Shown here piece after piece: positions 43,832-45,581 of a stretch of 64,000 nt of DNA. Under the pieces are notes generated by a model. It had not been told where the DNA came from, made no database searches, and was given only the letters and a program-made list of their open reading frames with translations. The stretch spans positions 62,001-126,000 of the forward strand of contig NZ_JTEV01000012.1 in assembly GCF_000786105.1 (NCBI RefSeq), in the 5' to 3' direction. The stretch comes from Bdellovibrio sp. ArHS (lineage in GTDB: Bacteria; Bdellovibrionota; Bdellovibrionia; Bdellovibrionales; Bdellovibrionaceae). How positions within the stretch are numbered: the stretch's first letter is position 1; each line of letters begins with the position of its first letter. Both the position numbers and the translations under genes were made by a program.

Positions 43832-43944
43832 GACTTACCTCTTAAAACCCCAGCATACGCCTCTAATTATAAAAGGTTATCCCTGACCAGCTGCATCTAT
43901 GATTGCCGCCCCCCGCTTTACGATGGTAGATTTAATTCCTCTGT

Positions 43945-44020
43945 GCGGATATAGCGTAGTTGGTAGCGCGCTTCCTTGACATGGAAGAGGTCACTGGTTC
44001 AAGTCCAGTTATTCGCACCA
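43945..44020 (+). tRNA. tRNA-Val (GAC)
   Basis: A 76-base tRNA with encoded CCA. The acceptor GCGGATA pairs with TATTCGC; the anticodon stem CTTCC/GGAAG encloses loop TTGACAT, anticodon GAC; the T-loop is TTCAAGT. It lies 113 bases downstream of the GST gene start and is the site at which the prophage sits: phage sequence begins right after the CCA. Confidence 0.95.
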
Positions 44021-44097
44021 AGTCTTTTCCAGTAGTTAACCAAAAATCAGTTCTAAAAAGGAAGAGGTCACTAACGATTTAGAACTGATTTAGAACT
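43983..44097. other. attL region with arm-type repeats
   Basis: The 3' half of the tRNA is the expected att core. The 13-base GGAAGAGGTCACT in the tRNA (43983-43995) recurs at 44060-44072, just outside. The second copy sits in the loop of a perfect 13-base inverted repeat (44045-44057 and 44078-44090), and GATTTAGAACT is repeated in tandem at 44076-44086 and 44087-44097, ending exactly at the integrase stop codon. These repeats look like integrase arm-binding sites. The matching attR lies outside the window. Confidence 0.7.
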
Positions 44098-45177
44098 CTA
44101 GATTGCACCCCTCCTTTCCCGACGCTTTTCGTCGAGACTGGCTACGATGCCCTTTAGTTCCTTTTCTGGCATATCAACATAACCAAGCGTCGTTTGATAA
44201 CGCCTGTGGCCCGCCAAGGCTTGAACCTTTGGCAGCCCTATGTCGCTTGCTACTAAAGCTGTAATAAATGTATGGCGAAGCTTATACGGCGTTAATGCCT
44301 CTCTAAGCCCAAGGCTTCGCCGGATCTCCCGAACTTTTTCGGATAAAACATCCGGCACAATCTTGTTGCCTTTTGTGTTCAAAAAAACAAAGTCGTCGCC
44401 TTTTGAAAAGGGCCGCTCTTTTTTGATCTGCTTCAGTAAGCCCTCAATATCGCCGACGATGGGGTAACTTCTTTCCAAAAGTTTCCCGCCCTTTTTGCTT
44501 TTAAGCTTTAAATAGCCTTCATCAAAATAGACTTCTTTGAATTTTAGATTTGTAGCTTCTTTGGGTCTACAACCTGTGCTATAGATGAAGAGAATATATT
44601 GCTTAAGATGCTTGGGCAGCAGGGGGAAAACCATATTGATTTCATCCTCTGTCCAGGTAACTTTTTTAACCTCTTCAACCTGAAGCGGTTCGACTGACCG
44701 CATAGGCGACTCTTTTAAAAATCCCCTTTTGATGCACCGATTGAAAAACCCGCCAAGGCTTGCAAAGTGACGATTCACAGAGCTTGCTTTCATGGATTCT
44801 AAAAGCTCACTTTGATATGCCTCCATATCCTCGCAAGTAATCTCGTGCAGGTAATCTCGGCCCTGATCGAAAATAAAGTCATAGAATCGCCCAAAAATGG
44901 CCTTATCCACTCCCTTATCTTCGCCTTCAGTTTTTTTCTTTCGCATTTCGACATGGTGCTTGATTGCATCACTGATTTTCTTCGGATCAACCGAGGACAC
45001 TCCACTAACGCCCAAGCTTTTACGCATATACGCCTGCTCAAGCTGGAATTTCTTAATCCCCGCCCAATCCTGCGCGTCCGATTTGGTCTTAAAAGTCTTT
45101 TCAAACTTCTCAGGCCCCATTCTGACTCGCACTCGAATCGAGTTGTTGTTTTGATAAAAATATACTTTTGCTACCAC
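44098..45177 (-). CDS. int: Prophage integrase (tyrosine recombinase)
   Basis: Integrates and, with an excisionase, excises the phage. The 359 residues have an N-terminal arm-binding-like part (FYQNNNSIRVRVRMGPEKF), a SAM-like core-binding domain near 80-170 and the catalytic domain: YSTGCRPKEATNLKF (Arg), YKLRHTFIT (His-x-x-Arg), LAGHRRYQTTLGYVD (His and the Tyr nucleophile). It reads towards the tRNA gene and ends at the tandem arm-like repeats. The upstream 98-aa gene overlaps its start by seven bases. Confidence 0.95.
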   Translation of the reverse strand: MVAKVYFYQNNNSIRVRVRMGPEKFEKTFKTKSDAQDWAGIKKFQLEQAYMRKSLGVSGVSSVDPKKISDAIKHHVEMRKKKTEGEDKGVDKAIFGRFYDFIFDQGRDYLHEITCEDMEAYQSELLESMKASSVNRHFASLGGFFNRCIKRGFLKESPMRSVEPLQVEEVKKVTWTEDEINMVFPLLPKHLKQYILFIYSTGCRPKEATNLKFKEVYFDEGYLKLKSKKGGKLLERSYPIVGDIEGLLKQIKKERPFSKGDDFVFLNTKGNKIVPDVLSEKVREIRRSLGLREALTPYKLRHTFITALVASDIGLPKVQALAGHRRYQTTLGYVDMPEKELKGIVASLDEKRRERRGAI

Positions 45178-45467
45178 AGCTTTTCTTTCTCCCTTTTATT
45201 GGTTTTAAAAGCTGCGCTTTTCCCGATCTCTTTATTTTTCAAAGAACAATTCTCAGCCGCCGAAGGCGACTTAAAGAACAATTCTTCTATAACATCGGGA
45301 TGGAAGCGTAAACTTCCCATGTTTCTAACTGTCGGGATTCTGGGCTCACGTCGTGCGTTTGGGCCGGTCCTTGCGTAAATGAAAGATGGAGCGCATTGAA
45401 GCATTGCGCAAACGTCGTGGAGCGTCAGAAGCCTTCTACTGTTTGTTGCCAAGTTTCTCGCGCCCAT
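45171..45467 (-). CDS. Excisionase-like small HTH protein
   Basis: In 98 residues the N-terminal half is a winged-helix/MerR-type DNA-binding module: RLLTLHDVCAMLQCAPSFIYA, followed by MGSLRFHPDVIEELF, as in the helix-turn-helix_17/excisionase family. The C-terminal part is basic. Place (directly upstream of int, overlapping it by seven bases) and size fit a Xis. GTGAGGAAAC gives a good ribosome site before the ATG at 45467. Confidence 0.7.
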   Translation of the reverse strand: MGARNLATNSRRLLTLHDVCAMLQCAPSFIYARTGPNARREPRIPTVRNMGSLRFHPDVIEELFFKSPSAAENCSLKNKEIGKSAAFKTNKREKEKLW

Positions 45468-45473
45468 GTTTCC

Positions 45474-45581
45474 TCACTTTCCAATCGGCAAATTAACCAC
45501 TGCCCAAATTGTATAAAGATGACCAATCAAGAATCCGATAAATAAACCAAGACCTAGTCCTACTGTTTCAAGCAGTTTCAT
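45474..45581 (-). CDS. 35-aa membrane peptide in the prophage early operon
   Basis: A short frame gives MKLLETVGLGLGLFIGFLIG, continuing HLYTIWAVVNLPIGK. It has one glycine-rich membrane segment (about residues 7-30). The ATG at 45581 is preceded by a purine-rich GGGGGCGGCGAA stretch, and its stop lies seven bases before the next ATG, tightly fitted in the operon. Function unknown; small phage membrane peptides can be antiholins, exclusion factors or regulators. Confidence 0.55.
   Translation of the reverse strand: MKLLETVGLGLGLFIGFLIGHLYTIWAVVNLPIGK

Follow-up and report, generated by a model that had tools for sequence, protein, structure and literature searches.

The integration locus and its repeats

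The window, by which we mean the whole stretch of 64 kb that was analysed (contig C12, positions 62001-126000, from a 3.54-Mb genome in 47 contigs), contained a single tRNA gene, tRNA-Val(GAC). A spacer of 77 bp follows its 3' end, and beyond this lies an integrase gene on the minus strand, the stop codon of which starts at 44098. The following features were found here:

43945-44020, plus strand: tRNA-Val(GAC) (ARAGORN; Rfam tRNA, 70.8 bits), the target gene, restored by the phage
43973-44020, plus strand: attL core, sharing 48 identical bp with attR (contig C12, 143714-143761; L003, 1491-1538)
43976-43982, plus strand: putative 7-bp crossover (overlap) TTGACAT, the anticodon loop, placed from the tRNA position and the start of the identity block
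43983-43995, plus strand: core-type half-site C'/B', GGAAGAGGTCACT, an exact 13-mer, from the att comparison
44044-44091, no strand: perfect 14-bp inverted repeat with a 20-nt loop, arms AAATCAGTTCTAAA (44044-44057) and TTTAGAACTGATTT (44078-44091)
44098-45177, minus strand: tyrosine integrase of 359 aa (Pfam PF00589, 3e-23; PHROG integrase, 5e-45; predicted lambda Int-like fold)
45171-45467, minus strand: small ORF overlapping the integrase start (HTH_17, E 0.19, below the Pfam cut-off)

An earlier note on this DNA had described a 13-mer of the tRNA-Val gene that is found again at 44060-44072, in the spacer. We observed that both copies were exact, and that there were no others in the window. 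The note had placed the second copy in the loop of a perfect 13-base inverted repeat; the repeat was indeed perfect and its 20-nt loop contained the copy, but its length was 14 bp. The two tandem units that were said to reach the integrase stop were also present, as the 11-mers GATTTAGAACT at 44076-44086 and 44087-44097, directly before 44098. Across the 64 kb of the window, the inverted repeat was the sole perfect one of 14 bp whose loop measured 3-45 nt, and the 11-mers were the sole perfect tandem pair of that length. Dinucleotide shuffling of the spacer, done 1,000 times, yielded inverted repeats of at most 12 bp, and none of 20,000 shuffles contained the first 10 bases of the 13-mer.

When the whole genome was searched for the exact 13-mer, we found the two window sites, a third site on C12 that marks attR, and one further place on contig C45 that had no tRNA. 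Random occurrence elsewhere in the genome had been named as evidence against the earlier proposal; with this one extra place, the exact 13-mer is rare in the genome, yet not unique.

The search for attR, which had been suggested as a check, thus yielded a core shared with attL. The block of identity was exactly 48 bp, as neither side extended by even one identical base, and it began three bases before the anticodon loop, in the 5' strand of its stem, and continued past the loop as far as the terminal CCA. An attR core that leaves out the repeated stretch had also been named as evidence against the proposal, and here the outcome was split: the first 13-mer copy lay inside the core, while the second lay outside it. 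As the attR core excludes the second 13-mer, this copy sits in the P' arm of the phage. The element between attL and attR was about 37.7 kb. Empty tRNA-Val loci were seen in two relatives that belong to this genus (L022 and L025), where the left chromosomal flank joins the tRNA and the right flank aligns partly, from about 70 bp beyond. The second 13-mer was absent from both loci, as expected. Two marks of a bipartite attP, a core duplicated at attL and attR and an empty attB, were therefore found.

The element is best explained as a temperate phage that uses the anticodon loop of tRNA-Val(GAC) as its integration site and leaves the tRNA restored. Its genes include those for RecT, a YqaJ exonuclease and a repressor-like protein, and, judging from their sequences, large late genes that appear to be like those of tailed phages. 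An ORF resembling a DNA cytosine methyltransferase was also noted within the prophage (L006, 12845-13750, minus strand).

Candidate arm-type sites and the integrase

The sites predicted in the spacer are as follows:

44026-44038, plus strand: weak IHF-like site (7/9), near the 8/9-9/9 places in tRNA-Glu relatives, with a score that is within chance here
44049-44059, minus strand: predicted arm-type site P'1, inverted (TTTTTAGAACT on the minus strand)
44060-44072, plus strand: putative accessory core-type half-site, 13/13 identical to C', from its position and its recurrence in relatives
44076-44086, plus strand: predicted arm-type site P'2, GATTTAGAACT
44087-44097, plus strand: predicted arm-type site P'3, GATTTAGAACT

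In the far P arm, just inside attR, we observed TTTTTTAGAACTGGTTTAGAACTGG, which is the tandem 11-mer with one or two changes. Since the tandem repeats recur in both arms and outside the core, the 11-mers (TTTAGAACT) are supported as candidate arm-type integrase sites, two in P and three in P', of which one is inverted. Counted from the middle of the overlap, the approximate positions of these predicted sites are -160 and -149 for the two direct ones in P, +67 for the inverted one, and +94 and +105 for the two direct ones in P'. With 11-mers in both arms, the inverted repeat would consist for the most part of two arm sites that face each other. The suggestion of the earlier note that an integrase binding array exists at attL is thus supported at the level of sequence by attR, the flanks of the empty site, the 11-mers in the other arm and the modelled lambda-like N-terminal domain of the integrase.

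The integrase had the R, K, R, H and Y residues of a tyrosine recombinase catalytic domain (R204, K229, R301, H324 and Y333), and these were invariant in alignment A1. In the HxxR motif, the first His was replaced by Tyr (Y298), both in this integrase and in that of L012. In the structure model (mean pLDDT 70.7), residues 4-54 form a three-stranded sheet and a long helix, with pLDDT above 75 over most of this part; a helical core-binding part comes next, and then the catalytic domain. The C-terminal region was poorly predicted. Among the best matches of the structure search, lambda integrase on DNA was the one to align over its full length (about 350 columns). As the sequence profiles for an arm-binding domain were marginal (Pfam, E 1.2), the N-terminal assignment rests on the structure model. 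The model fits a two-domain integrase, in which the N-terminal domain would bind arm-type sites and the rest core-type sites. The small ORF that overlaps the integrase start is, from its position, a possible directionality factor (Xis) of the HTH_17 type.

The integrase was rather isolated, its best relatives being 26-35% identical. In the three relatives for which attR was located (L012, L017 and L014), the repeat was present in both arms. A clear inverted arm site was confined to the window element and L013. Tandem repeats of 10-11 bp by the integrase stop are widespread at tRNA-adjacent integrases of the phylum (for example L108, L109, L111, L112, L216, L224 and L264). The exact tandem arm pattern was not found in viral_contigs. 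Four of the loci (L011, L014, L015 and L017) showed an IHF consensus of 8/9 or 9/9 at a common position, about 5 bases past the 3' end of tRNA-Glu. The IHF-like match in the window (7/9, at spacer position 6) scored no better than chance within this single element.

The proposed additional half-site and its recurrence

The 13-mer begins at tRNA position 39, the first base after the 7-nt anticodon loop, and is as long as a single core-type half-site. The copy in the P' arm, which we call the spare copy, starts identically to the tRNA copy, and the similarity stops abruptly after 13/13 bases. The 7-bp anticodon loop with its flanking stem is known to correspond to the overlap and the core sites in the attB of lambda (PMC8371274). 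We considered a second recombination site at 44060, and this was ruled out, as neither the overlap sequence nor a left half-site adjoins the copy. Lacking both, the spare copy cannot recombine alone.

We then compared 65 integrase loci of the phylum that lie 3' of a tRNA gene, the window included (64 others). L017, at tRNA-Glu(TTC), had an extra half-site, GGAGGATACA, with 10/10 matches to its own tRNA. L012, at tRNA-Gly(GCC), had GGTATcGGTC, with 9/10 matches to its own tRNA half-site, although this copy fits the opposite half of its own tRNA site better (11/12). L013, at tRNA-Val(TAC), had the weaker match GGTGGAcG within a 12-bp inverted repeat, and this case alone was not significant on the 10-base score. 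All three lay on the same strand, between the tRNA and the integrase gene. The claim of an extra half-site that matches the tRNA is thus supported by its position and by two relatives that carry the sequence of their own tRNAs, along with one weaker case.

The recurrence was evaluated with a swap test, in which each spacer was paired with its own tRNA or with swapped tRNAs, and at least 9 matches over 10 bases on the plus strand were scored. There were 3 hits among the 65 own pairings and none among the 2,447 swapped ones (Fisher p = 1.7e-5, or 6.4e-4 with the window left out); the threshold was picked post hoc, after seeing the window, and these p-values are guides and not clean tests. Across threshold choices the window-free p spanned 6e-4 to 1, and with 13 bases the window was the sole match. 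No copies above chance were seen on the minus strand of the spacer in this test, or in the P arm. In the elements with a known attR (the window element, L012 and L017), the copy was in P' only, never in P. The extra half-site was not seen in four close relatives (L011, L014, L015 and L068), and it occurs at only 3-4 of about eight tRNA loci of the close clade. In the four cases the copy lay 77, 84, 132 and 64 bp from the core half-site, and the helical phase was not constant.

A further candidate, at tRNA-Leu in L094 (10/12), was ruled out as a copy, since its arm sequence is common to L080, which has a different tRNA half-site; partial matches in L111, L176 and L194 were left uncounted. Searches of IMG/VR, phages, plasmids and genome_contigs for close relatives of the integrase gave none that were useful, the sole viral match (L127) being a distant integrase with tRNA-Glu on its other side. 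Two of the loci deserve a remark on their assembly or size. At L014/L135 (G059:C51:47429-52623), a related integrase at tRNA-Glu lies in a small element, whose attL and attR are separated by only about 5.2 kb and which is perhaps a satellite or a remnant. In the genome with the L017 element (G030), the pieces of the integrase and the two att ends were on separate contigs (C87, C29 and C69) and the integrase frame was short; this element may be decayed or misassembled.

Alternative explanations, known systems and a possible role

The inverted repeat could also be a terminator-like hairpin that ends the integrase transcript, with a loop that carries 13 bases antisense to tRNA-Val. The minus-strand RNA spanning 44040-44097 folds with an energy of -16.5 kcal/mol (z -4.6) and has a short U run at its end, and L013 too has a hairpin, of 12 bp. 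But no terminator was called in 43900-45500, and the A+T-rich stem and 20-nt loop are not those of an intrinsic terminator. L017 has an exact half-site without a hairpin (z -0.2), and an antisense role explains neither the boundary at tRNA position 39 nor the 11-mers in the far P arm. The Rfam antisense family HPnc0260 matched 43982-44105 (minus strand) at 37 bits, below its gathering score of 59, and this match is probably due to chance. We therefore regard the hairpin explanation as rather unlikely.

That the second copy is a relic, a tRNA fragment without any function today that was left by an earlier insertion or by a rearranged att site, is unlikely as well. Elements in tRNA genes do leave 3' fragments of the tRNA at attR, and tRNA sites do get reused; however, a decayed attR fragment should extend toward the tRNA end, whereas this copy is 13/13 identical and then the similarity stops. 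It is also placed exactly between intact arm sites, and the relatives show the matching segment of other tRNAs. A chance match inside an ordinary array of arm sites seems very unlikely to us, since the half-site recurs in relatives: even though the 13-mer was found once in the genome outside any tRNA, and most tRNA-adjacent integrases have no copy, its 10-base prefix was never obtained by shuffling and the feature is repeated in two independent relatives.

Considering these points together, we think it reasonably probable, from the sequence features, that the spacer represents the P' arm of an attP of the lambda type, in which an accessory core-type half-site lies among the arm sites. The attP of lambda has a two-domain integrase, arm-type sites in both arms and core-type half-sites around a 7-bp overlap (PMC4880445), and the window element shares this overall plan, along with the fold match of its predicted model to lambda Int. 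The core-type sites of lambda are only B, B', C and C' (PMC4880445), whereas the window element has a further half-site in P'. The 11-bp arm-type site pairs and triplets that flank the core in Pixie and Cluster K mycobacteriophages, one in the opposite orientation as here, are another likeness; such pairs are established in either orientation, and Pixie integrates at a tRNA-Lys gene (PMC3203893). The passages on these arm-type sites describe no extra core-type half-site (PMC3203893), while the window element carries a putative one. In the KplE1 prophage, the attL on which IntS acts lies at a tRNA (argW) and likewise combines sites of the arm type with sites of the core type (PMC2951348). There, attL overlaps the integrase promoter and its occupancy represses the gene (PMC2951348), whereas in the window the 3' end of the integrase gene faces attL, and control of the KplE1 kind is therefore not applicable.

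The closest likeness for the extra half-site is the Haemophilus phage HP1, which targets the anticodon loop of a tRNA-Leu and has an additional core-like copy in attP, namely TTTAAATACCA at the core and an inverted copy directly after the 3' end of the tRNA. Hakimi and Scocca are said to have found, in 1994, that HP1 integrase binds two classes of attP sites. The HP1 copy comprises the left half and the overlap in inverted orientation and, unlike the copy in the window, has no tandem arm sites around it. The attB of lambda does not lie in a tRNA gene, in contrast to the target of the window element. An extra core-like stretch in attP, as in the 13/13 copy at 44060-44072, is thus already precedented by HP1; what seems new is a core half-site that is enclosed by arm sites and matches the target tRNA across several elements.

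As to how the accessory half-site might act, the integrase would grip the arm sites by its N-terminal domain and the core half-sites by its remainder. An integrase molecule on P'1 or P'2 could then dock its core-binding part at the spare half-site between the facing arm sites. The most likely role would be that the spare half-site stabilises or retains integrase on P', and so tunes assembly or direction. Alternatively, it may keep integrase off the true core and thereby set the timing or direction; acting as a decoy, as suggested in the earlier note, is one possible function. Binding, and with it any function of the site, is what we infer from the att cores, the arm-site array, the boundary of the half-site and its recurrence in two relatives, all of which were observed directly. 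That the half-site was 'copied' from the tRNA is unproven, because convergence on the same integrase recognition sequence yields the same pattern. One protein surface must recognise all the core-type sites, and the resemblance to the tRNA may therefore reflect shared recognition and not copying.

More tentatively, and with considerable doubt, we suggest that this clade of phage integrases might keep a non-recombining core-type half-site, set between arm sites that face each other, that tracks the tRNA target; it would be a built-in parking site that keeps the core-binding part of the integrase off the real core and in this way sets the timing or direction of recombination. Models of lambda-type recombination put core-type sites at the crossover. 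With a half-site in an arm that tracks the tRNA target, the way in which integrases park on their own DNA would be readable from sequence. The natural variants allow the target half-site to be compared with the spare half-site, and attP arms of this kind would help in reading the core specificity of integrases directly.
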